A stretch of 64,000 nucleotides of DNA, taken from positions 472,127 to 536,126 of the forward strand of contig NZ_KQ034028.1 of the NCBI RefSeq assembly GCF_000970795.1, read 5' to 3'. The DNA comes from Bombilactobacillus mellifer. Its GTDB lineage: Bacteria > Bacillota > Bacilli > Lactobacillales > Lactobacillaceae. The notes below the pieces were generated by a model, which was given only the letters and a program-made list of their open reading frames with translations, ran no database searches and was not told the DNA's origin. The translations under genes were made by a program, and so were the position numbers. Within the stretch, counting starts at the first letter, position 1. Every line of letters starts with the position of its first letter. This document shows, piece by piece, positions 26,584-48,868 of this stretch.

Positions 26584-26735
26584 ACCCCAATTCACTTCCT
26601 TTACTTAATTATATAGTAAGTCGAGATAAATTGCTGAAGCACGCCAGATCATTTGAAAAAAATCAGCTAAAAAAAGTTCATCCTACCAAAAAATTAATTT
26701 TTTTATGGAATGCTATTTTAGAAATTATTAAAACA

Positions 26736-26850: not shown

Positions 26851-26947
26851 GTCGGACAAAAGAACCCTTATTGTTTTTTAAAAGTGAAAGCTGTAACTTA
26901 TATTTTAAAGGCAAGAGCGCTTCCATTGGGAGCTATTAAGGATGTTG

Positions 26948-28039: not shown

Positions 28040-28040
28040 G

Positions 28041-30358: not shown

Positions 30359-30362
30359 AGTT

Positions 30363-31055
30363 ATGGCAGAAGAAAAAGAACAATATCTGACGGTACCAGA
30401 TAAAATTACCGATAGAAGTTTTCAGATTATTCAACAAGAAATAGAACAAATAATGCCGGGCAAAACTTTTGATAGTCCCTTACAAGAAGCGGTGGTCAAA
30501 CGCGCCATTCATACTACAGCCGATTTTGATTATTTAAAAAATTTAAAATTTACGCACAACGTATTAGAGCGGATCCAGCAAGCTTTTATGACGCACGCTA
30601 CGATTTATACCGATACAACGATGGCGTTAGCTGGGATGAATAAAAGACGTTTAGACGCTCTTCAGGTTTCATATCAGTGTTTAATACGTGATGAGCGAGT
30701 GCAAAAGCTGGCGCAAACCAAACAAATTACGCGTTCGATGGCGGCTATTGAAATAGCGGCCCAGCAGCCAGGTAAAAAAATTTTTGTGGTGGGCAATGCG
30801 CCTACGGCCTTATATAAAATTATCGAAATGGTGCAAAAACAAACATTACAAGTAGAAGCAGTGATTGGCGTGCCGGTAGGTTTTGTGGAAGCGGCAGAAA
30901 GTAAAGCTGCTTTAATGCACTCTGCAATTCCCTCTATTGTGGCCTTAGGTCGAAAGGGTGGCAGTAATTTAGCGGCAGCCTTAGTCAATGCCATTATTTA
31001 TAATACGGATGTTCAGAATTTAGGTGATGAATATGGCCGCAACTCCCGACAATAA
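30363..31055 (+). CDS. cbiC: Cobalt-precorrin-8 methylmutase CbiC
   Basis: 230 residues. VVKRAIHTTADFDY (the motif around the catalytic His), TDTTMALAGMNK and GVPVGFVEAAESK. Moves a methyl group from C11 to C12, giving cobyrinate. Its end overlaps cbiD by 23 bases. Confidence 0.95.
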   Translation: MAEEKEQYLTVPDKITDRSFQIIQQEIEQIMPGKTFDSPLQEAVVKRAIHTTADFDYLKNLKFTHNVLERIQQAFMTHATIYTDTTMALAGMNKRRLDALQVSYQCLIRDERVQKLAQTKQITRSMAAIEIAAQQPGKKIFVVGNAPTALYKIIEMVQKQTLQVEAVIGVPVGFVEAAESKAALMHSAIPSIVALGRKGGSNLAAALVNAIIYNTDVQNLGDEYGRNSRQ

Positions 31056-32184: not shown

Positions 32185-32783
32185 TTACAGTTCTAGGGAT
32201 TGGACCTGGCGCTCCTGATTTACAACTGATTAAAAGTCGCCAAGTGTTAACTACCGCGCAGGTAGTAATCGGATCTCCCCGTCAATTAGCATTATTTCCA
32301 GATGTTGCTAGTGATAAAAAAATGATACTACCACATTTGCCACAATTAAAAATCTTTTTACAAAAAAATCAAACAAAGTCAGTGGTCTTATTAGCTTCCG
32401 GTGATCCGTTATTGTATGGGATTGGTAAATGGATACAAACTGTGCTACCTGCAGATCAAATTTGTATCATTCCTGGTATTAGTTCGATTCAATATTTCTT
32501 TAATAAATTACATTTGTCTATGAACGATTGCTACTTAACTAGCAGTCATGGTAAGAATCCAAATTTCGATTTTTTGCTTTTGCATGACAAGGTCGCAATG
32601 GTGACAGATCAGCGATGGGGACCCTTTCAAATTGCACAAGCGATCCTAAGTCGGCAGCAGTCACGACGTTTATACATTGGTGAAAATTTAAGTTATCCAA
32701 CTGAAAAAATTTCAGTGTATGCTGCCGCTGCTGTTCCCGATCGACATTATGAAATGAACGTGGTGATTATTACTAATGCGTGA
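32175..32783 (+). CDS. cbiE: Cobalt-precorrin-7 C5-methyltransferase CbiE
   Basis: 202 residues, tetrapyrrole methylase fold: VLGIGPGAPDLQLIKSRQVL and LLASGDPLLYGIGKWI. Methylates C5; partner of CbiT, which is fused to it in some bacteria as CobL. Two starts are possible (ATG 32175, 4 bases after GAGG, or ATG 32181). Overlaps cbiD by 10 bases and cbiT by 8. Confidence 0.92.
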   Translation: MGMITVLGIGPGAPDLQLIKSRQVLTTAQVVIGSPRQLALFPDVASDKKMILPHLPQLKIFLQKNQTKSVVLLASGDPLLYGIGKWIQTVLPADQICIIPGISSIQYFFNKLHLSMNDCYLTSSHGKNPNFDFLLLHDKVAMVTDQRWGPFQIAQAILSRQQSRRLYIGENLSYPTEKISVYAAAAVPDRHYEMNVVIITNA

Positions 32784-33357
32784 TGAAGAATTTTTGCGAA
32801 ATAAAGTACCGATGACTAAATCGGAAGTTCGGGCTATTAGTCTGGATAAATTGGACCTCAGCGGTAAAAAGCGTTTGTTAGATATTGGAGCGGGCACTGG
32901 AAGTGTAAGTATACAAGCAGCGCGGCAATTTCCCCAGCTTCAGGTAACAGCGATTGAACGTAATCCGCAGGGCATCGACATTATTCAACAAAATTTAAAC
33001 CGCTTTCAGCTGTCTAATTTTCACTTGATAGCCGGTGAAGCTCCTAAAGATTTACCCCTGCAAGCCTTTGATGCCATTTTTGTTGGTGGTAGCGGCAAGC
33101 ATTTAGCGGAGATCATTCAATATGCCGCGCAAACATTAACAAATCAGGGAACATTAGTTTTGAATTTTATTTTATTGGAAAATGCACTTCAAGCGCAGGA
33201 CATTTTGGAACAATATCAGTTTCAAAAATTGGAAATAGTAGAAATTAATGTGGCAAAGTGGCATCAATTAGGTTCTGGACATTATTTTAAACCTAATAAT
33301 CCCACTATTGTCATGGCAGCTTGTCAAGGAGGTCAAAGCAAAAATGAAGAAAATTAG
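32776..33357 (+). CDS. cbiT: Cobalt-precorrin-6B C15-methyltransferase (decarboxylating) CbiT
   Basis: 193 residues. Class I methyltransferase: [21 protein letters not shown] is the SAM-binding motif I, after the family opening [19 protein letters not shown]. Methylates C15 and decarboxylates the acetate on C12. Confidence 0.93.
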
Positions 33358-34105
33358 TTTTGTCGGGGCGGGCCCCGGCGATAAAGAATTGATTACCTTA
33401 AAAGGTTATGAGCGTCTACGACAAGCCGATGTGGTGATTTATGCGGGTTCGCTGGTTAATACAGAATTATTAGATTATTGTCAACCTAAGGCGCAAAAAT
33501 ATGACAGTGCGCCAATGACTTTGGAACAAATTGTCGATTTAATGGAGCAATCAGTACATGCGGATCAAGCAGTGGTCCGATTACAAACAGGTGATTTTTC
33601 AATTTATGGTTCCATTCGAGAACAAATTGAGGAACTAAATCGTCGCCAGTTACCATTTGAATGTATTCCTGGTGTTAGTTCGTTTTTAGGTGCTGCGTCT
33701 AGTCTGGGAGTAGAATATACGGTACCCGAAGTGGCTCAAAGTGTCATTATTACTCGAATGGCCGGCAATACTCCGGTACCTACAAAAGAATCGATTGCTT
33801 CATTAGCCCAGCATCAAACCTCAATGGTGATTTTTCTTTCCATTCAAGGTATCAGTCAAGTAGTGGAACAGCTAGTGGCGGGGGGATATCCACAACAAAC
33901 ACCAGCTACAGTAATTTATAAAGCTACTTGGCCTGATGAAAAAGTCGTCACTGGAACCTTAGAAGATATTGCCGCGAAAGTAACTGCAGCACATATCAAT
34001 CGTACGGCATTGATTATGGTAGGACGTTTTTTAGGTGCCGAATATAATTATTCGCACTTGTATAATGCTGCTTTTAGTAATATGTATCGTGAAAAGAGTA
34101 AATAA
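33344..34105 (+). CDS. cbiF: Cobalt-precorrin-4 C11-methyltransferase CbiF
   Basis: 253 residues, class III tetrapyrrole methylase: [35 protein letters not shown], and [25 protein letters not shown] lies 10 bases before ATG 33344, which makes this start better than an in-frame GTG-type codon 36 bases upstream. 14-base overlap with cbiT. Confidence 0.95.
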
Positions 34106-35178
34106 TGGCCTCAAAGTTTGCGATTGTTGCTTTAACCCAGCAAGGGGCGCGCACAGCAGTGGAATTAGCCCAGCTTTTACACGCTCAATCCAATTATCAA
34201 GTAACAGTTTTCTTAGCAGCCAAAGTTCAGGCACAATGGCCTCAGACTCATAGTTTTGGCTCAGGGGAAATGCCTAAGTTATTACAACAATTGTTTCGAC
34301 AACAAGATTGTGTCATTTGTATTATGGCTACCGGAATTGTAGTCCGAATACTGGCACCGGTCATTCAAGATAAGACGTTGGATCCGGCAGTGATTGTGCT
34401 CGATGAAAAAGCCCACCATGTGATCAGTTTATTATCAGGTCATGTGGGTAGAGCTAACCAATGGACATTAGAAATTAGCTCTTTATTGCATAGTCAAGCA
34501 GTGATTACAACAGCGACCGACACTGAGAATGTGCAAGCTCTGGATGTGATGGCCCAAAAAGTTCATGGCTGGTATCCCAATTTCAAAGCGAATACTAAGT
34601 GGATCAATGGTCTATTAGCCAATCATGAAACGGTTTACTTATATATTGAACCTTATTTGGAATCTTACTTTGATAATTTCAATGGCCTAACCCGCGTGGA
34701 GAGTTGGGACCAAATTCCAGATACGGCACCCTTAGTTATTTTATCGGATCATATCAATTTTCCCAAACGCGAACGAGTTGTGCATGTCATTCCTCAAATC
34801 AATGTTTTAGGTATTGGTTGTCGTAAAAATATCACTTATCAAATGTTACAGCAGGCGTTTACAGAATTTTGTGATTTTTATCAATTAGCCAGTTTATCAT
34901 TTTGTGCCATGGCTTCCATTGATTTGAAGCAATCTGAGCCGGCAATTCAATATTTGAGTCGACAGTTAGGGATCCCGGTAACTTTTTATACAGCAACCCA
35001 ACTGCAGCACACTCATCAACAATACTCGGCTTCGTCTTTTGTTCAACGAGTAACCGGTGTTGGCAATGTGGCTTGTGCCGCTGCGGATGTAAAAAGTCAA
35101 CAACCAGCTTTGACAGACAAATTTGTCAAAAATCAGGTAACTTTAGCTTTAGGAAGAAAACAAATAAAGGAGAAATAA
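34105..35178 (+). CDS. cbiG: Cobalt-precorrin-5A hydrolase CbiG
   Basis: 357 residues. N-terminal domain with CIMATGIVVRILAPVIQDK and HVISLLSGHVGRANQW, C-terminal domain with VLGIGCRKNITYQML. Opens the lactone ring with loss of acetaldehyde, the ring-contraction step special to the anaerobic path. Shares one base with cbiF (TAATG). Confidence 0.95.
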   Translation: MASKFAIVALTQQGARTAVELAQLLHAQSNYQVTVFLAAKVQAQWPQTHSFGSGEMPKLLQQLFRQQDCVICIMATGIVVRILAPVIQDKTLDPAVIVLDEKAHHVISLLSGHVGRANQWTLEISSLLHSQAVITTATDTENVQALDVMAQKVHGWYPNFKANTKWINGLLANHETVYLYIEPYLESYFDNFNGLTRVESWDQIPDTAPLVILSDHINFPKRERVVHVIPQINVLGIGCRKNITYQMLQQAFTEFCDFYQLASLSFCAMASIDLKQSEPAIQYLSRQLGIPVTFYTATQLQHTHQQYSASSFVQRVTGVGNVACAAADVKSQQPALTDKFVKNQVTLALGRKQIKEK

Positions 35179-35904
35179 ATGTTATATGTGATTGGTTTGG
35201 GTCCTGGAGATCAGAACCTATTGACAGCTGAAGCGCGTCAAATTATTCAACAAACCCCTATCATTGTGGGTTACGCCACATACATTAAATTGGTTTCCAA
35301 TCTTTTAAAAGGCAAAACGGTGATTCAAAATGGCATGCACGGCGAAGTGGAACGATGTCAAAAAGCTTTAGATTTAGCCTCTGAAGGACAGGATGTAGTA
35401 ATCATTTCCAGTGGAGATGCTGGCATTTACGGTATGGCGGGTTTGATTTGGGAATTAAAAAGCAAGCAGCAGCTCGATATATCAGTGAAAGTCATTCCCG
35501 GCATCACTGCCAGCATTGCGGCCGCCGCGCATTTAGGCGCCCCTTTAATGAATGATTTTTGTCATATAAGTCTGAGTGATTTGATGACTCCTTGGGAAGT
35601 AGTGGCCCAACGTGTTGAGGCGGCGGCGCAAGCCGATTTTGTTATCTGTCTTTACAATCCGCGTAGTAACCATCGCCCTCATAAATTACGTCAAGCTTTG
35701 GATATTATTTTAAAATATAAAGCCCCTACGACCGTTGTCGGTGTTGGTACAGATGTGGCACGATTAAATGAAGTCGATCAAGTGACCACCATTGCTGATT
35801 TAGATGAAACAACGATTGGTATGACGTCAATTGTCATCATCGGTAATAAAAATACCTATGCCTATCAAGGTAAAATGATTACTCCGCGAGGTTATCAACT
35901 GTGA
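35179..35904 (+). CDS. cbiH: Cobalt-factor III C17-methyltransferase CbiH
   Basis: 241 residues. MLYVIGLGPGDQNLLTAEAR, IISSGDAGIYGMAGLIWE and CLYNPRSNHRP. Methylates C17 with ring contraction. Directly abuts cbiG; AAAGGAG in the end of cbiG. Confidence 0.95.
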   Translation: MLYVIGLGPGDQNLLTAEARQIIQQTPIIVGYATYIKLVSNLLKGKTVIQNGMHGEVERCQKALDLASEGQDVVIISSGDAGIYGMAGLIWELKSKQQLDISVKVIPGITASIAAAAHLGAPLMNDFCHISLSDLMTPWEVVAQRVEAAAQADFVICLYNPRSNHRPHKLRQALDIILKYKAPTTVVGVGTDVARLNEVDQVTTIADLDETTIGMTSIVIIGNKNTYAYQGKMITPRGYQL

Positions 35905-36653
35905 TTTTGCTATTAGGTGGTACTTCGGAAAGCTTGGACATTGCGGATTTATTAGATCAACAATCATGGCCGTATATTTTGACAGTAGTGAGTGACTATG
36001 GGCAGACTTTGGCGGCAAAACCGGGCCGTCAAGTACAGGAATTAGCTTTTTCACCGACGAGTTTCATTCAATTTTGCCACGAGCATCAGATTCAATTAGT
36101 GATTGATGCTACACATCCTTTTGCAAAGAATATTTCACAGTTAGTGATCGAACAAACACAACACTTACAAATACCCTATATTAGATTTGAACGAGCTAAT
36201 TCTTATCAATCTAATGAACATTTTTTGTTTTATGACGATGCAGCCGCTGCTTGTGAGTATTTGCAAACCACTACTGGTCAAATTTATCTGTCAACGGGTA
36301 GTAATACGGCAGCACAATACGCCGAGGCTTTAGGTGTACAACGCTTACATGTCCGAATTTTACCTACATTAACAGCTCTTTCGAAAATACAGCAAGCAGG
36401 CTTTCATGCTAATCAAATTGATGCTTTGCAAGGACCATTTTCTAAAAAACTAAATATTGAACTCTTTCAACGGGCACAAGCTAAATTTGTGCTCACAAAG
36501 GAAAGTGGTACCCGTGGCGGAATACAAGAAAAAATGGCAGCTTGTGTAGCTTTGAAAATCGTCTGCATCATAATTAAGCGCCCACAAATTAATTATCCTC
36601 GGCAAGTGAATACACTCAGGGATTTAAAAGAGGAAGTGAAGCAGTTCCTATGA
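35901..36653 (+). CDS. cbiJ: Cobalt-precorrin-6A reductase CbiJ
   Basis: 250 residues, GTG start overlapping cbiH by 4 bases. LLLGGTSESLDIADLL at the N-terminus, VIDATHPFAKNISQ, and TKESGTRGGIQEKM near the C-terminus. NADH-dependent reduction of the corrin ring. Confidence 0.93.
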   Translation: MILLLGGTSESLDIADLLDQQSWPYILTVVSDYGQTLAAKPGRQVQELAFSPTSFIQFCHEHQIQLVIDATHPFAKNISQLVIEQTQHLQIPYIRFERANSYQSNEHFLFYDDAAAACEYLQTTTGQIYLSTGSNTAAQYAEALGVQRLHVRILPTLTALSKIQQAGFHANQIDALQGPFSKKLNIELFQRAQAKFVLTKESGTRGGIQEKMAACVALKIVCIIIKRPQINYPRQVNTLRDLKEEVKQFL

Positions 36654-38044
36654 CAGGAAGAGTTACTCTATTAGGCGCCGGTCCAGGAGATCCCGACTTG
36701 TTAACCTTATTAGGTTGGCGTCGTTTACAGGAAGCCACTGTGGTTTTATATGATCGGTTAGTTAATCCTTCACTATTATTAATTCCTGATGTCAACACTA
36801 AATTGATCAACGTTGGTAAAGCGCGGGGGACAGAGCGTTTAAGTCAGGATCAAATTAATGCTTTATTAGTTCAATATGCGCAGGCTGGTGAAGTAGTAGT
36901 CCGCTTAAAGGCTGGGGATCCCTATGTTTTTGGTCGCGGTGGCGAAGAAGCCCAGTATTTAGCAGCACATCATATTAACTTTGAAGTTGTTCCCGGCTTG
37001 ACTAGTGCAATAACCGGTTTAAGTGCCGCCGGTATTCCCATCACGAATCGGCAGTATGCTTCCAGTTTTCATGTCATTACGGGTCAAAAGCGGCATGGAG
37101 ATCAACAGTTAGATTGGGCTAATTTAGCACAGTTAGAAGGAACTTTAGTTTTTCTTATGGGCATGGCTGAATTACCAGAAATTTGCCGGCAATTAATCGC
37201 TCACGGTAAAAATCCAAAAACGCCTACGGCAGTGATTCAGTGGGCTACCCAATGGCGGCAAAAAATGGCGCTCGGTGATTTGGATAATATTGAAACAGCT
37301 GTAAAGCAAAAGCGCTTAGCAGCGCCTGCATTAATTGTTATTGGTGAAGTTGTTCCTTTAGCACATCAATTGCAGGTAAAACGAAGCTTATCAGCCCGCC
37401 ATATATTAGCACCTAGCAATTTAGATCGGAGCTTATTATTTAAATTACAAGATTTAGGTGCGACCGTTGATTTTTATGTCACAAGTCAGCCGCAACGAGT
37501 AAAAAAACCATTACCGGATTTTTCCAAATTTCGGCAGTTGACTCTGAAGGATTATTTTAGTTATCAGTATTTGATACAAGCACTCAATGCACAGCAATTA
37601 GATATTAGAGCCTTGGCGGGTTTGCAATTAAGTACGAGTGATTCATTACTCAAGCAAACTTTACAGCGACAAGGCCTGCAGATAGCTGACGACGCAAGTT
37701 CAACTAACTTTTTGAATGACGCTAAAACTTTAATCATAGGACCACAAGATCTTCAAATTACAGCAGCTAATTATTATGGTATTTATACGTATCAAAGACG
37801 GGAATTAACTTTAGAGCAAAATTTAGCAGATTTTCAGGCGGTGATTTTTACTTGTTCACAAGATGTGCTTGATTTTCGCAGAGATTTTTCTAAGCCAGAA
37901 TCGGCATCATGGATGGTGGCTTTTGTGACTTCTTCAAAAATGCAAGCAGCAGTAAAGACCTTAGCCTTTAAAAAAGTCGTCGTGCTCAATGGTGATCTGT
38001 TAAATATGGAACAATTAATTCTGGAGGAGTTAAAACATGAATAA
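36650..38044 (+). CDS. cobA-hemD: Fused uroporphyrinogen-III C-methyltransferase / uroporphyrinogen-III synthase
   Basis: 464 residues. Residues about 1-240 are the SUMT domain: LLGAGPGDPDLLTLLGW, VVRLKAGDPYVFGRGGEEA, GLTSAITGLSAAGIPIT; it makes precorrin-2 with two SAM. Residues about 245-464 are a diverged HemD-type domain (starting near RSLSARHILAPSNL, later IIGPQDLQITAANYYGI). The same two-domain layout is known from L. reuteri. The window also has a stand-alone hemD at 47104, so the fused domain may be redundant or impaired. Overlaps cbiJ by 4 and cbiK by 8 bases. Confidence 0.9.
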   Translation: MTGRVTLLGAGPGDPDLLTLLGWRRLQEATVVLYDRLVNPSLLLIPDVNTKLINVGKARGTERLSQDQINALLVQYAQAGEVVVRLKAGDPYVFGRGGEEAQYLAAHHINFEVVPGLTSAITGLSAAGIPITNRQYASSFHVITGQKRHGDQQLDWANLAQLEGTLVFLMGMAELPEICRQLIAHGKNPKTPTAVIQWATQWRQKMALGDLDNIETAVKQKRLAAPALIVIGEVVPLAHQLQVKRSLSARHILAPSNLDRSLLFKLQDLGATVDFYVTSQPQRVKKPLPDFSKFRQLTLKDYFSYQYLIQALNAQQLDIRALAGLQLSTSDSLLKQTLQRQGLQIADDASSTNFLNDAKTLIIGPQDLQITAANYYGIYTYQRRELTLEQNLADFQAVIFTCSQDVLDFRRDFSKPESASWMVAFVTSSKMQAAVKTLAFKKVVVLNGDLLNMEQLILEELKHE

Positions 38045-38807
38045 AAAAGCCATTATCGTCGTCAGTTTTGGGACCACTTATCCCCAGACCCGCAAACAAA
38101 ATCTGTGGGCGACACAACAAGCCATTCAGACTGCTTTTCCGGAATATCAAACTTATAACGCTTATACCTCGCAAGTAGTCATTAATCGGGTGGCCCAACA
38201 AGAAAATATCCAAATGCATACGCCGCGAGAAGTTTTAATCCAGTTGGTTCAACAACAAGTAACCGAAGTCATAATTCAGCCGTTGCATATTATTCCCGGT
38301 TGGGAATTCAATTCTTTGAAAACATTAGTCCAAGAATTTAAAGATCAATTTAACCAATTACGACTGGGAGAACCTTTATTAGTTAAAATTAAAGATTTTC
38401 AGAGATTAATCACTTTTATAAAGGACCAAGCCGCTCCACTGGCACCAGATGAAGCCAATTTATGGATGGGACATGGTAGTTCGCATAGTTCCTTTACCGA
38501 ATATGCTTGTTTGGATCATATGTTGTGGCAAACTAATAGTTTTGTGGGCGCTGTGGAAAGTTATCCTGAAATCACAGTGGAATTGCCGCGTATGCAGCAA
38601 CAGCATATAGCCCGAGTTTATTTACATCCTTTAATGATGGTTGCCGGCAATCATGCTCATCATGATATGGCTGCAGCTACTGCCAATTCTTGGCAGACTA
38701 TTCTGGAACAACATCAAATAGCCGTGGTACCCGTTCTGAAAGGTTTGGGGCAGTATCCTGAAATTCAGGCTATGTTTATTGATAAAATTAAAGCTTTATT
38801 ACAATAG
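38037..38807 (+). CDS. cbiK: Sirohydrochlorin cobaltochelatase CbiK
   Basis: 256 residues. AIIVVSFGTTYPQTRKQN at the N-terminus, a metal-binding His in WMGHGSSHSS and a second in LMMVAGNHAHHDMA. Inserts Co2+ into sirohydrochlorin, committing it to cobalamin. No signal peptide, so cytosolic. GGAGGAG before ATG. Confidence 0.95.
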   Translation: MNKKAIIVVSFGTTYPQTRKQNLWATQQAIQTAFPEYQTYNAYTSQVVINRVAQQENIQMHTPREVLIQLVQQQVTEVIIQPLHIIPGWEFNSLKTLVQEFKDQFNQLRLGEPLLVKIKDFQRLITFIKDQAAPLAPDEANLWMGHGSSHSSFTEYACLDHMLWQTNSFVGAVESYPEITVELPRMQQQHIARVYLHPLMMVAGNHAHHDMAAATANSWQTILEQHQIAVVPVLKGLGQYPEIQAMFIDKIKALLQ

Positions 38808-38816
38808 GAGAAAATA

Positions 38817-39536
38817 GTGACATATTTTGTAGGCATTGGTGTAGGCCCAGGTGATAGTGAGCTATTGACGCTGAAGGCTGTTCAGACACTGAAACAGTTA
38901 GATACTTTATATGTTCCCCATGCTCATAGCGGGCAGGTTAGTTTAGCAGAAACAATTGCTCAACCTTATTTAAAAACCACCATAGAGATTAAATCGCGCC
39001 GTTTCCCCATGGTTCGTAGTCAAACAGTTAAGGCACAGGAATGGCAAAAGATTGCGGATGAAATTATCGCGGATGTCAATGCCGGTCAAGAAGTCGGGTT
39101 TTTAACCTTGGGAGATCCTGCCATTTACAGTACTTTTAGTTACTTATGTAATTATTTGCAAGGGAAAATTCCTATCCGCAGCGTCGCGGGCATTTCTTCC
39201 TTTAGTCAAATTGCTTCCATCTTAGTTCAACCCTTAATTTTAGATAATGAGTCCTTAGCTATAATTCCGGCCAATAAGGATCCTCAGCAACTAGAACAAT
39301 TGATTGATCTTAATGATAATGTAGTTTTGATGAAGTTGGCGGTTAATTTTGCCAAAATTTATCAGATTTTAGCCCAGCGCAATTTATTAGCTCAAACAAC
39401 AGTTATTGAGCGTGCTTCAATGGAACAACAAGTAATTAAAACTATGAATCAATATCATCCAGAGGATAAAGTGCCTTATTTTACGACAGCCGTTTTAAGA
39501 AAGGAGCACACAGATGCAATTCAAAAAAATACTTAA
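38817..39536 (+). CDS. cbiL: Cobalt-factor II C20-methyltransferase CbiL
   Basis: 239 residues; GTG start behind AGGAGA. GIGVGPGDSELLTLKAVQTL and FLTLGDPAIYSTFSYL are class III methylase motifs. Methylates C20. Overlaps cbiM by 23 bases. Confidence 0.94.
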   Translation: MTYFVGIGVGPGDSELLTLKAVQTLKQLDTLYVPHAHSGQVSLAETIAQPYLKTTIEIKSRRFPMVRSQTVKAQEWQKIADEIIADVNAGQEVGFLTLGDPAIYSTFSYLCNYLQGKIPIRSVAGISSFSQIASILVQPLILDNESLAIIPANKDPQQLEQLIDLNDNVVLMKLAVNFAKIYQILAQRNLLAQTTVIERASMEQQVIKTMNQYHPEDKVPYFTTAVLRKEHTDAIQKNT

Positions 39537-40257
39537 GACCTTGTTGGCCATTACCGGTGCCATGATTTTTTTCTTGTTAGCTTTTCCAACGCGGGTGCAG
39601 GCCATGCATATTATGGAAGGGATGTTGCCGCCTAGTTGGTGTATTAATTGGTACGTAATTTCGGCACCCTTTTTCATCTATGGTTTGTATCGATTACAAA
39701 AAATTATTCAATCCAGTCAAAAAAATGCCAAAGTAATGTTAGCTTTATGTGGTGCATTTGTCTTTGTGTTATCTTCTTTAAAATTGCCATCGGTAACGGG
39801 ATCATGTTCCCACCCTACAGGAGTAGGTTTAGGCACTGTCATGTTCGGCCCCGGGGTAATGTCCGTTATTGGCGTTATTGTGTTATTATTTCAAGCACTA
39901 TTACTGGCTCATGGAGGCCTGACTACGCTCGGTGCTAATGAGTTCTCGATGACTATTATAGGACCAATCGTTGGTTTTTTGGTTTATAAATTGTGCCGGC
40001 GTTTCAAGGTTAATCGTTCGGTATCGATTTTCTTATGTGCGATGCTGGCGGATTGGTCAACTTATATTACGACTGCTTTTCAGTTAGCCATTGTCTTTCC
40101 GGATCCGCATGCGGGGGTGATGGCTGCGTTAATTAAATTTTTAGGTATCTTTGCGATTACTCAAATTCCTTTAGCAATTGCAGAAGGTTTATTGACGGTT
40201 ATTGTTTATAACTTGGTAATTAGTAATGATTTATGGAAGGAGACCGCCTTACAATGA
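39514..40257 (+). CDS. cbiM: Cobalt ECF transporter, substrate-binding protein CbiM
   Basis: 247 residues. An N-terminal hydrophobic signal-like segment (about 8-30) ends in VQAMHIMEGMLPPSWC; the new N-terminus MHIMEG is the metal-binding sequence of CbiM. Six or so further membrane segments. Co2+ recognition in the membrane. AAAGGAG precedes ATG. Confidence 0.95.
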   Translation: MQFKKILKTLLAITGAMIFFLLAFPTRVQAMHIMEGMLPPSWCINWYVISAPFFIYGLYRLQKIIQSSQKNAKVMLALCGAFVFVLSSLKLPSVTGSCSHPTGVGLGTVMFGPGVMSVIGVIVLLFQALLLAHGGLTTLGANEFSMTIIGPIVGFLVYKLCRRFKVNRSVSIFLCAMLADWSTYITTAFQLAIVFPDPHAGVMAALIKFLGIFAITQIPLAIAEGLLTVIVYNLVISNDLWKETALQ

Positions 40258-40583
40258 ATAAAAGAACGAAAACCAATATTATCTTATTAGTTATCGTCTT
40301 ACTACTAATCATTTTTCCGTTCGTTTTTGTTCATGGCGAATATGGCGGTAGTGATGATCAAGGCACTGAACAAATTAAAAAATTTGCGCCGCATTACAAA
40401 GTCTGGGCCCATCCGATTTGGGAGCCACCTTCTGGAGAAATTGAAAGTTTATTATTTACAGTCCAAGGTTCTTTAGGTACCGGGATTATTGCTTATGTGA
40501 TTGGTAATGCCCATGGCAGGAAAAAAGCTTTAAAAGAATTGGAACATCCTTCGCAAAAAACGTCGGCATCAGCCAAAAAATAA
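40254..40583 (+). CDS. cbiN: Cobalt ECF transporter subunit CbiN
   Basis: 109 residues: membrane helix about 8-28, an extracytoplasmic part with EYGGSDDQG and WEPPSGEIESLLF, then a second helix (GTGIIAYVIG). CbiN inserts a loop into CbiM and is needed for cobalt uptake. ATG 40254 overlaps the cbiM stop (ATGA); AAGGAGA lies 10 bases upstream. Confidence 0.93.
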   Translation: MNKRTKTNIILLVIVLLLIIFPFVFVHGEYGGSDDQGTEQIKKFAPHYKVWAHPIWEPPSGEIESLLFTVQGSLGTGIIAYVIGNAHGRKKALKELEHPSQKTSASAKK

Positions 40584-40598
40584 AGAGGTGCTGCTTTG

Positions 40599-41279
40599 AT
40601 GTTGAGTATCGATAAATACGCTTATTCAAATCGCTGGGCTGAATGGTCACCTCTGACAAAGGCCGGAATTTGGTTAGGATTAATGATTTTAGCATTTCAA
40701 CCTTTACTCTGGCTGAAGTTCAGTATGTTAGTTTGTGTAGCCATTATTACTGTAAGAATAACGCAAGTTTCCTGGCGGCAATATGTGAAGTGGTTTTATG
40801 CAATTTTGCCATTTTTATTCTTAAGCATTCTGGGTATTGTCTTTACGGTCTCCCAGCAAAAACAAGACTTACTTATTGCTTGTCATTTGGGCCAGACCTA
40901 TTTTGGGTTGTCTAAAACGATGTTGCCCGTGGGTGCCAAAATTGGAATTCAAGCGTTCAGCGCGATTATCGGCACTTATTGGTTTGCTTTATCAACGCCC
41001 TTTACGCAAATCATTTCCCTGCTGCATCGACTTCACCTCCCAGATAATTTAATTGAAATTACGATGTTAATGTATCGCTTCATTTTTATTTTTATTGAAT
41101 CCTGTGAGCAAATTTATCACGCACAAAAATTACGCTTTGGTTATGATACAATAGGGCTGACATTACATTCTTCGGGCATTTTAGCGCAAATGCTCTTTCA
41201 GCAAGTAATTGTTAATTATCGAAAAATGGAATTAGCTTTGGCTGCGAAATTATATGATGGCGAATTTCGAATCTCATAA
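40599..41279 (+). CDS. cbiQ: Cobalt ECF transporter, transmembrane coupling protein CbiQ
   Basis: 226 residues with about five membrane segments. MLSIDKYAYSNRWAEWSPLTK at the N-terminus is typical of CbiQ, and the C-terminal part carries the Ala-Arg coupling region (around AQKLRFG and ELALAAKLYDG). AGAGGTG is 8 bases before ATG 40599. Confidence 0.92.
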   Translation: MLSIDKYAYSNRWAEWSPLTKAGIWLGLMILAFQPLLWLKFSMLVCVAIITVRITQVSWRQYVKWFYAILPFLFLSILGIVFTVSQQKQDLLIACHLGQTYFGLSKTMLPVGAKIGIQAFSAIIGTYWFALSTPFTQIISLLHRLHLPDNLIEITMLMYRFIFIFIESCEQIYHAQKLRFGYDTIGLTLHSSGILAQMLFQQVIVNYRKMELALAAKLYDGEFRIS

Positions 41280-41291
41280 TGGAGGCTGACT

Positions 41292-42101
41292 GTGGTGTTA
41301 GAGTTAAAGAATCTTTCTTTTGGTTATGAACCGCAACATTTAATTCTCAAAAATATTTCGCTGCAGTTGGGAAATAACCACCAACACGTTATTGGCTTAA
41401 TTGGTCCCAATGGTTCGGGAAAATCAACCTTATTTTTAAATTTGGTGGGAGTCTTACGTCCAACCTCAGGGCAAATTATTGTCGATGGTCAACCAGTCAA
41501 ATATCACAAACACAATTTGCAAGCTTTACGCCAAAAAATTGGGATTGTGTTTCAAGATTCTGATCAACAATTATTTTATTCTATTGTTCAAGATGATGTA
41601 GCTTTTGCGTTAAATAATTTGAAATATGATACTACCGAAATTCAGCGCCGAGTCCAGGAAGTTCTGGAAGAATTGGATATTTGGCCATTACGTAAGTCGC
41701 CAATCCAATACCTCAGTGGGGGTCAAAAAAAGCGTGTGGCTATTGCTGGGATCTTGGTTTTGCAATCCGAATGGTTATTATTAGATGAACCCACAGCCGG
41801 TTTAGATCCTGATGGTCGGAAACGGATGGCTCAATTAATTAGCCATTTAGTGGCTCGTGGCCAGAAAATTATTTTGTCGAGTCATGATATGGATTTTATG
41901 TATGATGTTTGCGATTATTTCTATTTGTTAAATGCCGGACAAATTATTGCCGAAGGCACGAAAAAAACGGTTTTTACAAATCAACAATTATTAGAGAATA
42001 ATAAATTAGAACAGCCTTGGCTAGTGAAGTTGCACCAAAAATTGGGTTTGCCTTTATATAATAATGCCCAAGAACTATTTGATCAGCATGATTCAATGTA
42101 G
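41292..42101 (+). CDS. cbiO: Cobalt ECF transporter, ATPase CbiO
   Basis: 269 residues. ABC ATPase: Walker A GPNGSGKSTL, Q-loop FQDSDQQL, signature YLSGGQKKRVAIAG, Walker B WLLLDEPTAGLD and switch His in LSSHDMDF. Drives CbiMNQ. GTG start 6 bases after GGAGG. Confidence 0.95.
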   Translation: MVLELKNLSFGYEPQHLILKNISLQLGNNHQHVIGLIGPNGSGKSTLFLNLVGVLRPTSGQIIVDGQPVKYHKHNLQALRQKIGIVFQDSDQQLFYSIVQDDVAFALNNLKYDTTEIQRRVQEVLEELDIWPLRKSPIQYLSGGQKKRVAIAGILVLQSEWLLLDEPTAGLDPDGRKRMAQLISHLVARGQKIILSSHDMDFMYDVCDYFYLLNAGQIIAEGTKKTVFTNQQLLENNKLEQPWLVKLHQKLGLPLYNNAQELFDQHDSM

Positions 42102-42137
42102 GTTGCAATGAACTAGTTATAAACGGAGTTATTGAAC

Positions 42138-43649
42138 ATGACAAAAGCAATTATGTTTCAGGGAACCGCTTCCGATGCGGGCAAAAGTTGGATTGTTGCT
42201 GCGGCTTGTCGGTGGTTAGTACAACAGGGTTATAAGGTAGCCCCCTTTAAATCACAAAATATGGCGTTAAATTCTTTTATTACCCAAACCGGTGCCGAAA
42301 TGGGCCGGGCTCAGGTTTTCCAAGCTGAAGCAGCGCAGAAAGAACCTGATGTGCGGATGAATCCGGTGTTATTAAAGCCGTCAACTGATCAAACTTCTCA
42401 AGTAATAGTTATGGGCCAAATCTTGGCTGATATGAGTGCCCAAAAGTACTATCAATTTAAAAAGCAGTTAAAACCTCAGATCATGCAAGCTTATCGCGGT
42501 TTGGCTCAAGAAAATGATGTGATTGTTTTAGAGGGTGCCGGCAGCCCAGCGGAAATTAATTTAAACGAAAATGATATTGTCAATATGGGCATGGCCCGCT
42601 GGGCACAAGCGCCGGTGATTTTGGTGGCAGACATTGACAAAGGCGGTGTATTCGCCTCAATTTATGGTACGATTAAGTTGTTGGAACCGACCGATCAAAA
42701 ACGCGTATGTGGGATTATCATCAATAAATTTCGGGGTGATAAACAGCTTTTAGAGCCGGGTATTCGGATGATTGAACAACTAACTCATGTTCCCGTTTTA
42801 GGGGTTATTCCCTTAGCGGATGTGGATTTAGATGAAGAAGACAGTGTGGTACTCAGTCGCAAACGTCAAATACCTGATAATACTAAAGCCTTAGATATTG
42901 CAGTGATTGACTTAAAGCATATTTCTAATTTTACCGATTTTCATAGTTTAGAAATTCAACCGGATGTTTCTTTGCGTTATGTGTTGAAATCACAACAGCT
43001 AGGGCAACCGGATTTAATTATTCTTCCGGGAAGTAAAAATACCAATGAAGATCTGGCAGCTTTAAAAAAAGAACAGTTAGATCAAGCGATTGTACAAGCA
43101 CATCAGCAGGGAAGTTGGGTCGTTGGCATTTGTGGCGGCTATCAGATTTTAGGTCGGGACTTATTGGATCCTGACCAGGTGGAATCGACTATTCGCACAC
43201 AGGCAGGTTTAGGTCTGTTGGATATTGCGACTACTTTTAATCAACAAAAAACGACCACGCAGGTTATGGCCCAACGCGGTGACTACCAGCTCCATGGTTA
43301 TGAGATTCATATGGGTGAAACCAAGCTGGGGACGCAAGTACAACCATTTGCTCAAATTTTAACAGTGAATGGTCAAGCCTGCCAACGTTGGGATGGGGCG
43401 ATTAATTTAGAGCAGCGGGTTTTTGGCACTTATTTACATGGCCTTTTTGATAATCCGCTGTGGACCAGGCATTTTCTCAATCTCTTGCGGCAACAAAAGG
43501 GATTAGCTCCTTTCCAAGCTGCCACCCCCGCATTAGATCAATATAAAGAAACACAGTATCAAAAATTGGCACAAGTCTTTGCGGATAACGTTGATTTATC
43601 GAAGTTTATGGCACTTTTACAGCAATCTGAACAAGGAAGTCAACTATGA
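42138..43649 (+). CDS. cbiP: Adenosylcobyric acid synthase CbiP (CobQ)
   Basis: 503 residues. P-loop-like FQGTASDAGKSWIVAA, KSQNMALNSF, and a C-terminal glutamine amidotransferase domain with Cys in VVGICGGYQILG. Amidates positions b, d, e and g of adenosylcobyrinate diamide. ATG 42138 with CGGAG 9 bases upstream; TTG 42132 is less likely. ATGA overlap with the next gene. Confidence 0.95.
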   Translation: MTKAIMFQGTASDAGKSWIVAAACRWLVQQGYKVAPFKSQNMALNSFITQTGAEMGRAQVFQAEAAQKEPDVRMNPVLLKPSTDQTSQVIVMGQILADMSAQKYYQFKKQLKPQIMQAYRGLAQENDVIVLEGAGSPAEINLNENDIVNMGMARWAQAPVILVADIDKGGVFASIYGTIKLLEPTDQKRVCGIIINKFRGDKQLLEPGIRMIEQLTHVPVLGVIPLADVDLDEEDSVVLSRKRQIPDNTKALDIAVIDLKHISNFTDFHSLEIQPDVSLRYVLKSQQLGQPDLIILPGSKNTNEDLAALKKEQLDQAIVQAHQQGSWVVGICGGYQILGRDLLDPDQVESTIRTQAGLGLLDIATTFNQQKTTTQVMAQRGDYQLHGYEIHMGETKLGTQVQPFAQILTVNGQACQRWDGAINLEQRVFGTYLHGLFDNPLWTRHFLNLLRQQKGLAPFQAATPALDQYKETQYQKLAQVFADNVDLSKFMALLQQSEQGSQL

Positions 43650-44092
43650 CGTCATTATATCCGATAATGTTAAATTTAGCTGATCAAGCTGTAGGTGTCA
43701 TCGGCGGCGGTCAAGTAGCAGCACGCAAAATCAAAACTTTAAATTTATTAGGCATTATTCCGGTCGTGGTCAGTCCGCAATTAAATCCACAAATTAATCG
43801 CTCGCAGATTAAATGGATTGCTGATACTTATCACTATCACTATGTACAAGATTTGCGGCTTTTATTAGCATGTACTGATAATCGGAGGGTTAACCATCAA
43901 ATTCGTTTAGATGCTAGTTCCAAACAAATTGTGAATAACGTCAGTGATCAGCAGGATTCTGATTTTTTTAATATGGCCACCATTGTCCAGTCGGATTTAG
44001 TGGTCACAGTCTCAACGCGCGGACATTCACCGGCCCGCGCCAAACACGTAAAACAGGTTTTAGAAAGATTATTACAACAACAAAAACTATAA
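43646..44092 (+). CDS. Precorrin-2 dehydrogenase (siroheme synthase N-terminal domain type)
   Basis: 148 residues. Rossmann motif VGVIGGGQVAARK at 17-29, ACTDNRRVNHQI, FFNMATIVQSDLVVTVSTRGHSPA. NAD+-dependent oxidation of precorrin-2 to sirohydrochlorin, the substrate of CbiK. Shorter than CysG-N or Met8p (about 200) but the catalytic part is complete. In L. reuteri the corresponding gene is followed, as I recall, by hemA; here hemC follows after 55 bases. Confidence 0.88.
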   Translation: MTSLYPIMLNLADQAVGVIGGGQVAARKIKTLNLLGIIPVVVSPQLNPQINRSQIKWIADTYHYHYVQDLRLLLACTDNRRVNHQIRLDASSKQIVNNVSDQQDSDFFNMATIVQSDLVVTVSTRGHSPARAKHVKQVLERLLQQQKL

Positions 44093-44147
44093 CTCAACAT
44101 TATTTTGGACAAAATTAGGTACACAAGTTTATTGGAGAGCAAAATTA

Positions 44148-45089
44148 ATGAGAAACCAAATAGTTGTCGGTAGTCGTAAGAGTAAATTAGCTTTAATTCA
44201 GACGCAGATTGTGATTGCGGCATTACAAAAATACTATCCAAAAACCCAGTTTAAAATTCAATATGTAACAACAGAAGGTGATCGTAATTTGCAAGCGAGC
44301 CTTACCCAAATTGGGGGTAAGGGGGTGTTTGTGAAAGAAATTGAACAGCAGCTTTTAGATCATCAAATTGATTTGGCCGTCCATAGTTTGAAAGATGTTT
44401 TGCCAGTCTTGCCGGAACAGTTAACTATCGGAGCCTATCCGCAAAGAGATTGTCCGTTTGACTGTTTAATTAGTCGCCAGCCTTTATCCAGCATTTGGGA
44501 TTTGCCGGAGCACAGTATTATTGGTACAAGTAGCTCCCGCCGCCAAAGTCAGTTACTCCATCAACGTCCTGATTTGCAGGTTGTTTCAATTCGCGGTAAT
44601 TTAGATTCACGTTTGCATAAAATTGCTACTGATAATTTAGATGGCATTATCGTAGCCCAGGCGGGGTTAAATCGATTACAGCCCCGCATTCAGCCATATT
44701 ATGTTTTAAATTTAGAAGATGTTATTTTACCAGCCGTGGGTCAGGGATGTTTAGCCGTGGAATGTCGACAACAAGACTTGAAAATGCGGCGGATGCTCCA
44801 GCAAATTAATGACACGAGGACTGAATTATGTGTAGAAATTGAACGAGAATTTTTACGGGAATTAGGCGGCGATTGTACTTTTCCCATTGGTGGTTATGCT
44901 CGTGTGGTGAATCAAGAACTAACTTTTACGGGTTTGATCGCTACTAATGATGGTCAACACCTCATACAAGCTGAAACACGCACGACTGCGCCACAACCCC
45001 AGATCGGTCGCCAATTGGCGCAAAAATTACGCCAGAAAGATCAATATCAGATCATTCAAAATGCGAATGTCGATGATGCCGCTTTATGA
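44148..45089 (+). CDS. hemC: Porphobilinogen deaminase (hydroxymethylbilane synthase) HemC
   Basis: 313 residues. VVGSRKSKLALIQTQIV, GVFVKEIEQQLL, AVHSLKDVLP, GTSSSRRQSQL, and the dipyrromethane-cofactor Cys in ELGGDCTFPIGGYA. Polymerises four porphobilinogens. It is the first enzyme of the pathway visible here: hemA, hemL and hemB are not in the window. GGAGAG precedes ATG. Confidence 0.95.
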   Translation: MRNQIVVGSRKSKLALIQTQIVIAALQKYYPKTQFKIQYVTTEGDRNLQASLTQIGGKGVFVKEIEQQLLDHQIDLAVHSLKDVLPVLPEQLTIGAYPQRDCPFDCLISRQPLSSIWDLPEHSIIGTSSSRRQSQLLHQRPDLQVVSIRGNLDSRLHKIATDNLDGIIVAQAGLNRLQPRIQPYYVLNLEDVILPAVGQGCLAVECRQQDLKMRRMLQQINDTRTELCVEIEREFLRELGGDCTFPIGGYARVVNQELTFTGLIATNDGQHLIQAETRTTAPQPQIGRQLAQKLRQKDQYQIIQNANVDDAAL

Positions 45090-45120
45090 AAAAGTTATTC
45101 AGCAAAAGGAAAGATAAGTA

Positions 45121-45708
45121 ATGGTTAATGAATTAGTCTTAGTTCTCGGCGGCGCGCGCAGCGGTAAATCAGAATTTGCCGAAAGTCTCTATGCTAACAC
45201 GGCCAACATTTATTATATTGCTACCGGAGTTTTAAAAACTCATGATCCAGAAATGCAAGCGCGGATTCAAAAACATCAACAACGTCGTCCTGCTAGCTGG
45301 CACACTTTTGAACAGTATCAGGGATTAGAGACCTTAATTGCCCAGCATCAAGTGGATGGTTATTTTGTTGATGATGCGACAATGTTAGTTACTAATTTGT
45401 TTTACGATCAATTATTGCAACAAACGACGGCTTCTGAACTAGATAGTTACTTAGCACAAATGAGTGCCGATCAATTACTGACAATTGAAACAACGATTTT
45501 AAACGCGTGGCAAAAAATTTTGCACGCCCGCCAGCACTATCAACAGTCCATGGTAATTGTTAGTAATGAAGTAGGCTTGGGGGTTGTTCCCGCCACGAAA
45601 CAAACGCGGGTTTTACGCGATATTTATGGCAAAGTTAATCAACTCTTAGCCCGGCAAGCTACGAAAGTTTATTTTGTTATTAGTGGCATTGCCACGCAGA
45701 TAAAGTAG
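45121..45708 (+). CDS. cobU: Adenosylcobinamide kinase / guanylyltransferase CobU
   Basis: 195 residues. P-loop LGGARSGKSEFAE; HQQRRPASWHTFE contains the guanylylated His; SNEVGLGVVPAT. Activates cobinamide to GDP-cobinamide. Six bases before cobS. Confidence 0.94.
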   Translation: MVNELVLVLGGARSGKSEFAESLYANTANIYYIATGVLKTHDPEMQARIQKHQQRRPASWHTFEQYQGLETLIAQHQVDGYFVDDATMLVTNLFYDQLLQQTTASELDSYLAQMSADQLLTIETTILNAWQKILHARQHYQQSMVIVSNEVGLGVVPATKQTRVLRDIYGKVNQLLARQATKVYFVISGIATQIK

Positions 45709-45714
45709 GAGAAA

Positions 45715-46476
45715 ATGTTTACAGCACTTGTGTTATTTACTCAATTTTTTACAAAACTCAATATCCCCATTGCCATACCTGAACCTACTAATAAATTTCG
45801 AAGTAGTATTCAATATTTGACGCTGTTTAGTTTTTTATTAGGTTGCTTGGAGGCGGGGATCGTGGGTCTTTTCATGTTTATCTTGCCTAAGTGGTTAGTT
45901 TGGATTTTTTATTGGATTATTGATGGCTTAATTACCGGCGGCTTTCATTTAGATGCCTTGGCGGATACGGCAGATGGTTTATTTTCTTCACGCCAACCTG
46001 CGAAAATTTTAGATATTATGAAGGATAGTCGAATTGGGACTATGGGGGCTTTAGCCTTGATTTATTATTATATTTTGGCGATAGCTTTAGGTATCAATTT
46101 AGCGCGGATACTGTCACCTTGGTGTTTGTTGGCTTTAGTGGTTACTTGTACGATGGTGACTAAAACAGGACTATCACTCTTATTTTATCGGATGGTTTAT
46201 GCGGGTAAAAAAAATGGTTTGTCGGTGATTTGGTTACATATTGCCCCTTGGCGTATTGTGATTGCCCAAATATTTTCCGTCATAATCATCGGCTGGTTTT
46301 TCTCATGGTCGGGCTTAATTAGTTACGGTTTAATTATTGTTAGTGCTTATTTTTATCGTAGAAAAATTGTCCAAATTTTGGGAGGCTTTTCAGGCGATAC
46401 CTTAGGGGCCTTTGCCAGTTTAACCCCGGTGATCTTCTTATTCTGTCTAAATTTAACTTTTCAGCTGCTGAGGTAG
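45715..46476 (+). CDS. cobS: Adenosylcobinamide-GDP ribazoletransferase CobS
   Basis: 253 residues, polytopic membrane protein. Signature GGFHLDALADTADGLFSS and KDSRIGTMGALAL carry the metal-binding acidic residues of the CDP-alcohol-transferase-like family. Joins GDP-cobinamide to the alpha-ribazole type nucleoside. TAGGAGAAA before ATG. Confidence 0.95.
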   Translation: MFTALVLFTQFFTKLNIPIAIPEPTNKFRSSIQYLTLFSFLLGCLEAGIVGLFMFILPKWLVWIFYWIIDGLITGGFHLDALADTADGLFSSRQPAKILDIMKDSRIGTMGALALIYYYILAIALGINLARILSPWCLLALVVTCTMVTKTGLSLLFYRMVYAGKKNGLSVIWLHIAPWRIVIAQIFSVIIIGWFFSWSGLISYGLIIVSAYFYRRKIVQILGGFSGDTLGAFASLTPVIFLFCLNLTFQLLR

Positions 46477-46481
46477 TAGGA

Positions 46482-47072
46482 ATGAAATTAATTGTGGCCC
46501 GACATGGGGAAACCCTTATGAATCAACAACGCAAATTTTATGGCAGTTTGAATGTAGTCTTGGATAAAGTTGGTCAACAACAAGCCCAACTTTTAGCTGA
46601 AAAAGTGCTTCCTTTAAAGCCAACTTTATTAGTCCAAACTAATTTAAGACGAACGCAACAAACTTTAGTACCGTTGCGTCAAAGCCTTCCGCAAGTTCCA
46701 GTACTTACTTTGCCGGATTTGGCCGAAAAAGGATTTGGTCGCTGGGAAGGACTAGATGCTAATCAAATTCAGGCGCAAGATCCTGATCATTGGCAACGTT
46801 GGTTAGCGGCTCCCTTAACTTATACGCCCCCGTCGGTAGAACCTTTTCATGATTTTGAAACTCGTGTGGATCGCGGATTAAAGTGGCTAAAACAACACGC
46901 TGTAGCCACAGAGGTGATTTTTTTGGTGGCCCATTTAGGCACCTTAAGAGTCATTGATCAGCTCCTGTTGCAAGATCAGACTTATTTTTATGATCGTCAA
47001 TTTCAAAGTGCCTGTTATACGTTATACGAGTGGGACGCGCGACAAGTTCCGTTGGTGGTACGAAATCAATAA
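46482..47072 (+). CDS. cobC: Alpha-ribazole phosphatase CobC (histidine phosphatase family)
   Basis: 196 residues. RHG motif VARHGETLMNQQRKFYG, TNLRRTQQTL, EKGFGRWEG and second His in VAHLGTLRVI. Its place between cobS and hemD/cobT supports dephosphorylation of the lower-ligand nucleotide or adenosylcobamide phosphate. A second histidine phosphatase is at 22862. Confidence 0.88.
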   Translation: MKLIVARHGETLMNQQRKFYGSLNVVLDKVGQQQAQLLAEKVLPLKPTLLVQTNLRRTQQTLVPLRQSLPQVPVLTLPDLAEKGFGRWEGLDANQIQAQDPDHWQRWLAAPLTYTPPSVEPFHDFETRVDRGLKWLKQHAVATEVIFLVAHLGTLRVIDQLLLQDQTYFYDRQFQSACYTLYEWDARQVPLVVRNQ

Positions 47073-47103: not shown

Positions 47104-47844
47104 ATGGCGTTATTGATCACTTATGCGCAAACAAAAATTCCACAATTGTATCAAAAACAACTGGCCCAATGGACGAAGGTCATTTATTTACCATTGATTT
47201 ATTTACAACCGCGGACTTTAACTTTGAATGAGATACACTGCTTGCAACAAGCAACAGATATCGCAATTACTAGCAATTATGGGGCCTATTTATTTCAAAC
47301 CAAATATGCTCATTATAATCCCACGGCGACACTTCATGTTTTAAGTGCAAAGACAAAACAAAAACTGCAGCTGCAAGTACCTAACGCGATTCAAATTAGT
47401 GATCGTGAGAATCGCGCAGCTTTAGTGGATCAAATGCACCAAATCAATCCTGCGACCACTTGCTGGTTATTAAGCGATCGAGTCAGCCCTTCTGAAGCAC
47501 ACTTACCAGGAAAGCCCCTGGTAATTTATTACAATACTTGGACACGTAGCTTACAAAAAAAAGCCCTCACGATGTTATCAGGACAGCAAATTGATTGGGC
47601 TTTGGTCACTAGCGGTTCTAATTTTCAACGGTTGCTTACTTTGAAAACCAGATTAGATGATCAAGATTGGCAACATACAGTGTATTATGTTTTAGGACAC
47701 AAAACTGGTTCAGTCATTGCAGCACATCATTATCCGGTAGTTTATCCCGGACAGTCAACCCAAGTTTTAGAACAAATCCTTAAAAAGTTGGTACGTCAAA
47801 TTAAAATGGAGGCCAATCATGGACTGGACAAGTTTACCCATTGA
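47104..47844 (+). CDS. hemD: Uroporphyrinogen-III synthase HemD
   Basis: 246 residues. Low overall conservation as usual for HemD, but two similar halves, VTSGSNFQRLL near 181 and a C-terminal HHYPVVYPGQSTQVLEQIL fit the family. Cyclises hydroxymethylbilane. 31 bases after cobC; the last 26 bases overlap cobT. A HemD-like domain is also fused to the methyltransferase at 36650. Confidence 0.82.
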   Translation: MALLITYAQTKIPQLYQKQLAQWTKVIYLPLIYLQPRTLTLNEIHCLQQATDIAITSNYGAYLFQTKYAHYNPTATLHVLSAKTKQKLQLQVPNAIQISDRENRAALVDQMHQINPATTCWLLSDRVSPSEAHLPGKPLVIYYNTWTRSLQKKALTMLSGQQIDWALVTSGSNFQRLLTLKTRLDDQDWQHTVYYVLGHKTGSVIAAHHYPVVYPGQSTQVLEQILKKLVRQIKMEANHGLDKFTH

Positions 47845-48868
47845 ACCGCTAGATAAGCTAGCACAAACAAAAATGCAAACCAAATTAGATCAACTCGCTA
47901 AACCTATTAATAGTTTAGGTCGTTTGGAAGAATTGGCTGATCATTTAGCAGGCATTTACCATTCAACAGAATTGGACTTACAATCACGCAAATGCCTTGT
48001 CTTTGCTGCGGACAATGGGGTGGCCCAAGAAGGGGTGTCAGCCACGCCACAAAAGGTAACAGCTATTCAAGCACTGAATATGCTGGCTGGTCATACCGTT
48101 GTGGCAACTTTAGCGCAAACCTATCATTGCGATATTCAGGTGATCGATGTCGGAATTAAATCAGACTTGGATTCTGCTGCTATTGTTCAAAAAAAAATTA
48201 GATGCGGGACTGCCGATATGTTGGTGCAACCGGCGATGACTTATGCACAGGCACAACAAGCTATCCAAGTGGGTTTTGATCAAGCACAGCAAGCTATTGA
48301 GGCTGGATATCAGTTATTGGCGGTAGGAGAATTAGGTATTGGCAATACGACAGCAGCTTCGGCAATGGTTGCAGCACTATTACATACCAACGGTAGCGCC
48401 GTTGTGGGTAAGGGCTCGAATATTTCATCACAACGCTTGAAACATAAAATTAAGGTGGTAGACGGTGCTTTATCTCGTGCAGCTTTACCCTTTCCCCTGC
48501 CTGATCCCTTAGTGGTTTTACAACAGGTGGGAGCTTTAGAATTGGGAGCTATGACCGGAGCAATTTTAGGAGCTGCTGCTTATCAAAAACCGGTTTTATT
48601 AGATGGCTTTTTATCTTATGCTTCAGCTTTATTAGCTCAAAAGCTGAGACCGACAGTCCTTGATTACGTGATTCCTACTCATATTTCGCATGAGCAGGGA
48701 TCGCAATTAGTACTGCAAGCCTTGGGACTTAAACCTTATATTGATTTAGAAATGTGCGTAGGAGAAGGTAGTGGAGCTATGATGATTCTACCGTGGCTCG
48801 ATGGTCTGCAAACTATTTTGCAGCAAATGAATACTCAAATAGATATGGACTTTACTTATTTTCCGTAA
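47819..48868 (+). CDS. cobT: Nicotinate-nucleotide:dimethylbenzimidazole phosphoribosyltransferase CobT
   Basis: 349 residues. LAKPINSLGRLEELADHLAG, FAADNGVAQEGVSATPQ, GELGIGNTTAASAM and VLLDGFLSYASALLA are the family landmarks; the catalytic Glu is in the C-terminal ...MCVGEGSGAMM region. Makes the alpha-ribotide of the lower base. No bluB or other 5,6-dimethylbenzimidazole gene is present; lactobacilli use adenine and make pseudocobalamin. Last gene of the cob operon. Confidence 0.95.
   Translation: MDWTSLPIEPLDKLAQTKMQTKLDQLAKPINSLGRLEELADHLAGIYHSTELDLQSRKCLVFAADNGVAQEGVSATPQKVTAIQALNMLAGHTVVATLAQTYHCDIQVIDVGIKSDLDSAAIVQKKIRCGTADMLVQPAMTYAQAQQAIQVGFDQAQQAIEAGYQLLAVGELGIGNTTAASAMVAALLHTNGSAVVGKGSNISSQRLKHKIKVVDGALSRAALPFPLPDPLVVLQQVGALELGAMTGAILGAAAYQKPVLLDGFLSYASALLAQKLRPTVLDYVIPTHISHEQGSQLVLQALGLKPYIDLEMCVGEGSGAMMILPWLDGLQTILQQMNTQIDMDFTYFP

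Follow-up and report, generated by a model that had tools for sequence, protein, structure and literature searches.

A cobalamin operon without hemA, hemB and hemL in Bombilactobacillus mellifer is predicted to enter the pathway at porphobilinogen

The window, a 64,000-nucleotide stretch of the genome of Bombilactobacillus mellifer (G000), contains a cobalamin operon at ~26.9–48.9 kb in the order cobD, cbiABCDETFGHJ, cobA, cbiKLMNQO, cbiP, sirC, hemC, cobU, cobS, cobC, hemD and cobT (Table 1). The cobD-cbiA-cbiB-cbiC orthologs stand in identical order in the operons of relatives. The gene set leading from porphobilinogen (PBG) to cobamide is complete, comprising hemC, hemD, cobA, sirC, cbiK, cbiA to cbiP, cobU, cobS, cobC and cobT. 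No B12 riboswitch matched Rfam at the gathering score in the window, and nothing credible was found upstream of cobD. The left end of the window (1–2310) holds a dense tRNA array with 26 Rfam tRNA matches.

Table 1 Features of the cobalamin operon in the window and examples of the YjeM-like permease in other genomes.
Feature	Position	Strand	Basis
Cobalamin adenosyltransferase	26017..26595	-	PF01923, 185 bits; adjoins operon
cobD, cbiA, cbiB, cbiC	26942..31055	+	ORFs named from position and homology to relatives' operons
cbiD, cbiE, cbiT, cbiF, cbiG, cbiH, cbiJ	31024..36653	+	NCBIfam matches
CobA (uroporphyrinogen-III methyltransferase) fused to divergent HemD-like C-terminal half	36650..38044	+	TIGR01469, 306 bits
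cbiK (sirohydrochlorin cobaltochelatase), cbiL	38037..39536	+	NCBIfam matches
cbiM, cbiN, cbiQ, cbiO (cobalt ECF transporter)	39514..42101	+	family matches
cbiP, cobyric acid synthase	42132..43649	+	NF001989, 649 bits
Precorrin-2 dehydrogenase, SirC/Met8-like, 148 aa	43646..44092	+	TIGR01470, 83.5 bits (cut-off 62.3); NAD_binding_7
sirC/hemC junction, 55 bp	44093..44147	.	site of hemA in complete operons; remnant-free
hemC, hydroxymethylbilane synthase, 313 aa	44148..45089	+	TIGR00212, 324 bits
hemC/cobU junction, 31 bp	45090..45120	.	site of hemB-hemL in complete operons; remnant-free
cobU (45121-45708), cobS, cobC	45121..47072	+	family matches
HemD, uroporphyrinogen-III synthase, 246 aa	47104..47844	+	PF02602, 24 bits, below cut-off 27.5
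cobT	47819..48868	+	TIGR03160, 356 bits
YjeM-like permease, examples	L176:8404-9888, L181:11462-12955, L189:3804-5312, L033:3066-4547, and others		

Along its full length HemC aligns with PBG deaminases of known structure, for example 4mlq and 1pda, and Asp83, Arg131/132 and the cofactor-type Cys243 are conserved in the alignment, with Asp83 and Cys243, which we take to be the catalytic Asp and the cofactor Cys, being invariant. As a full-length protein keeping both residues, it is predicted from its sequence to be a functional hydroxymethylbilane synthase. The family of the separate HemD matched HEM4 in all nine members (best 8e-19), and its profile matched the solved uroporphyrinogen-III synthase 3mw8 (E=1.4e-4). 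A further HemD-like domain, more divergent and common to relatives, makes up the C-terminal half of CobA; its family matched HEM4 in six of seven members as well as solved HemD structures, the half in the window itself giving no HEM4 match; two HemD-type parts, one fused and one separate, thus coexist in the operon.

The initial annotation held that this operon lacks hemA, hemB and hemL and that its pathway enters at PBG. The boundaries it gave for the precorrin-2 dehydrogenase gene, hemC and cobU are exact, the two gaps beside hemC are indeed too short for any gene, and tblastn with the HemA, HemB and HemL proteins of G284, whose complete operon is the closest, was blank throughout the 64 kb window, with no remnants at either junction. 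Across the whole genome (1.81 Mb, 10 contigs, draft, 99.6% complete), searches that for HemA and HemB read through stop codons gave no match to HemB (PF00490) or HemA (PF05201), and none to HemL (TIGR00713) above the cut-off of 527, the sole match scoring 174 bits. The HemL-like protein at G000:C3:1102516 was rejected as HemL, being another class-III (aspartate-type) aminotransferase (NF006368, 719 bits). A sister species in the same genus (G005; 100% complete, 7 contigs) likewise carries hemC and lacks HemA, HemB and HemL, while the other five congeners sampled lack hemC altogether.

These absences bear on where PBG could come from. The suggestion that the hem genes lie elsewhere in the genome is excluded, as far as 99.6% completeness allows, by their absence from both whole genomes. 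That they exist and fell into assembly gaps or onto a lost plasmid might be entertained for an assembly of 10 contigs, but is extremely unlikely given its completeness, the contiguity of the operon on a 1.3 Mb contig and the matching absence from the 100%-complete assembly of G005. Imported 5-aminolevulinate (ALA), also proposed initially, would not suffice as a source, as the genome has no HemB, the enzyme that turns ALA into PBG.

HemC was found in 23 of 301 Lactobacillaceae genomes, 17 of which have hemA, hemC, hemB and hemL clustered. In complete operons hemA directly follows sirC, giving the order sirC-hemA-hemC-hemB-hemL-cobU; the L. reuteri-type grouping given in the initial annotation was seen in all ten complete Lactobacillaceae operons examined. 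In a midpoint-rooted tree covering 12 operons and based on a concatenation of 13 cob proteins, G000 and G005 form the sister group of the complete G284 operon (support 100) and nest inside complete operons, and a cobT gene 3' of hemD is common to G284 and the window. This nesting indicates losses on both sides of a retained hemC. Most simply, hemA disappeared from one flank of hemC and hemB-hemL from the other before G000 and G005 split; the hem genes could also have been lost separately in the two lineages. Several complete operons carry a ~250-aa gene between hemL and cobU (L041, G029 assembly 21169-21921, and relatives), which has no Pfam match and is absent at that place from the window, G005 and G284, all of which have cobT instead; it is possibly cblS, its SVGVTV motif apparently being encoded by a cblS primer given in PMC6167548. 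One record under the name Bifidobacterium primatium (L065:10001-14441) encodes HemC and HemB that are 54% and 71% identical to the lactobacillar proteins, with no hemA or hemL nearby; either the genes were transferred laterally or the contig is mislabelled.

Between G000 and G005, all 26 cob genes are open and stop-free at ~64% protein identity, with dN of 0.13–0.55 and dS, saturated in several genes including hemC, of at least 1.4 where estimable, a pattern indicating that the 26 genes are under purifying selection in both species. HemC is 58% identical between the two, compared with 60–64% between complete operons, and HemD 45%, compared with 35–41%; in the 13-protein tree the branches of G000 and G005 measure 0.38 and 0.32, against 0.04–0.66 elsewhere. 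This conservation looks like that of a used pathway, from which B12 synthesis itself is predicted. A decaying remnant that has lost the head of the pathway, makes nothing and persists by chance would accord with three consecutive missing steps and with an importer not found in G000, but it is unlikely: dN lies well below dS in open genes, the evolutionary rate is not raised, both species have retained hemC with the genes on its two sides deleted, and three HemB-less lineages that carry cob operons show the same state (Bombilactobacillus, G380 and G389/G449). The inactive pathway that the initial annotation had allowed for is disfavoured on the same grounds. Alternatively, a later intermediate (uroporphyrinogen III or cobinamide) or B12 itself might be imported, with hemC and hemD idle. 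Salvage of later intermediates is common among bacteria (PMC6461909), but this reading is decidedly improbable here, as the conservation of hemC, cobA and hemD between G000 and G005 is similar to that among complete operons.

With genes elsewhere, ALA import and inactivity set aside, entry at PBG, as first annotated, is the reading left. The loss of the PBG-making genes from the whole genome while every later gene is kept indicates that the strain most likely takes PBG from its surroundings, and the persistence of hemC between two deleted flanks, in an operon of open and constrained genes, argues for outside PBG and against decay. We propose, with a probability of about 0.7, that the operon is a working anaerobic adenosylcobalamin pathway that starts at HemC and runs on PBG from other organisms. 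On the way to Bombilactobacillus, an ancestral sirC-hemA-hemC-hemB-hemL-cobU order would have lost hemA, located 5' of hemC, and hemB-hemL, located 3' of it, with hemC and hemD remaining. The first step left would be hydroxymethylbilane synthase, fed with PBG that would enter via a carrier of this genus, so that B12 would be made only when PBG from other organisms is obtained, and would presumably serve the propanediol/glycerol dehydratase of the cell. Counting against this proposal are the draft state of the G000 assembly and the absence from it of the importer candidate of other genomes, described below. We found no report of bacterial PBG uptake in the open-licence literature.

A wider search of the order for HemC, HemB and HemA detected HemC in 93 of 395 Lactobacillales genomes, and HemB was missing from 39 of the 69 HemC-positive genomes tested, which together with five from Lactobacillaceae gives 44 genomes with HemC and without HemB. 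Many of these are mutual relatives and so do not represent 44 independent losses. HemA is missing too in 43 of the 44, the exception being G390, which points to PBG uptake rather than replacement of HemB alone. The hemC loci examined feed four products, the reductases and HemE being named by reading the sequences rather than by family searches: most serve siroheme with a NirB-type nitrite reductase, one siroheme with an AsrC-like sulfite reductase (G569), one heme in a hemC-hemD-hemE locus (G053), and five are of the cobalamin type (G000, G005, G380, G389 and G449). An unrecognised HemB substitute, or a route to PBG unlike HemA/HemL/HemB, would fit the many HemC-positive genomes without HemB; a HemB-only replacement, however, would keep HemA and HemL under selection, so the concurrent loss of HemA counts against it, and the places of hemA and hemB hold no new enzyme gene, making internal PBG synthesis quite unlikely. 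In two lower-completeness genomes (G503:C51 and G507:C12) hemB is split in two frames, as is hemC in G507, which may be sequencing errors.

Uptake of PBG requires a carrier, for which the comparison offers a candidate. An APC-type permease of ~495 aa, whose closest NCBIfam family is E. coli YjeM (NF011775), precedes hemC by 13 bp in G053, adjoins cobA in G569 and follows cobC by a few bases in the cob operon of Vagococcus fessus (G389). A profile built from ten such proteins and run on 80 genomes scored at least 575 bits in 38 of the 44 HemB-less genomes (ten of which had built the profile, leaving 28 independent of it), in none of 32 HemB-positive genomes, where the top score was 513 bits, and in none of four congeners without HemC. 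The association gave a Fisher p of ~2e-15 by genome and 6e-6 by genus (10/13 versus 0/18), both uncorrected for kinship. The gene lies within ~13 kb of hemC in 33 of the 38 genomes, and in two further HemB-less genomes (G553 and G562) the copies next to hemC are degraded or divergent. A long branch (length 0.79, support 100) in a phylogeny of 47 permeases separates all 24 hemC-associated proteins from every ordinary YjeM, and in a 398-genome sample of the phylum the profile never scored above 471 bits. The permease is absent from the HemB-positive siroheme-type loci of G033, G213 and G231 and occurs with four end products, which ties it to the absence of HemB and not to siroheme.

As a small, zwitterionic derivative of an amino acid, PBG is a plausible cargo for this permease superfamily. 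YjeM is reported to suppress, in multicopy, a deficiency in threonine uptake (PMC12003319). From these associations we infer that the YjeM-like subfamily is a candidate PBG importer. Whether Lactobacillales hold a dedicated PBG salvage system, in which hemC-hemD operate without HemA and HemB on PBG imported by this permease while Bombilactobacillus uses a different carrier, we regard as evenly balanced. The profile search found no hemC-linked permease of this type in G000, G005, G046 or G380, and it was accordingly rejected as the importer of G000 itself; the YjeM of G005 is solely of the ordinary type, which a hemC-less congener also has. Among the other membrane proteins in the window and its 20 kb flanks there is no credible importer. 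In G005 an MFS transporter is encoded between pdu and cob (L241:9522-10712, G005:C2:635616-636794), and its ortholog in G000 (49% identical, 354 bits) lies at G000:C4:312573 on another contig, apart from tetrapyrrole genes; the other 18 genomes tested hold at most 30%-identical paralogs, and the protein is a weak lead to the carrier of Bombilactobacillus.

The operon resembles those of L. reuteri, L. coryniformis (PMC6167548) and G284 in gene order and orthologous proteins, with a pdu operon adjoining in several, but those operons hold hemA, hemB and hemL, unlike the window and G005. Supplying ALA or PBG to L. reuteri and L. coryniformis, both of which carry hemALBCD, did not raise corrinoids (PMC6167548), which fits strains with a precursor supply of their own. 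Vagococcus fessus (L066) likewise has sirC-hemC-hemD in a genome without HemA and HemB; it is a separate lineage and, unlike the window, has the YjeM-like permease in its cob operon. Shelton et al. (ISME J 2018, PMC6461909) described tetrapyrrole precursor salvagers in 180 species, mostly Firmicutes and of five types, for which dependence on an outside precursor was predicted, dependence on ALA being proven in three species. Like these, G000 has complete genes for the corrin ring and nucleotide loop and misses the first tetrapyrrole steps. It lacks the HemB of an ALA salvager and the HemA, HemL and HemB of a de novo cobamide producer; all steps before PBG are absent and all later ones present. 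By gene content, G000 is thus a further predicted salvager of the PBG-entry sort, unlike the proven ALA-entry cases, and here the genes missing on either side of hemC can be traced back to an operon that was once complete. This kind of salvager is known in outline; the 44-genome set with HemC and without HemB and the linked permease subfamily go beyond it.

PBG, normally regarded as an internal intermediate, is thereby predicted to be a traded nutrient, and the B12 output of such lactic acid bacteria to depend on neighbours or medium. A B12-negative test in defined medium despite a near-complete cob operon would be explained, the right supplement being PBG and not ALA, and the comparison puts forward one specific candidate for the import of PBG into bacteria. 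Within the same family, the siroheme-type locus of G231 (L038/L039) keeps hemB without hemA and hemL, and genome-wide HemA is absent and HemL below cut-off, so that G231 is likely a case of entry at ALA.
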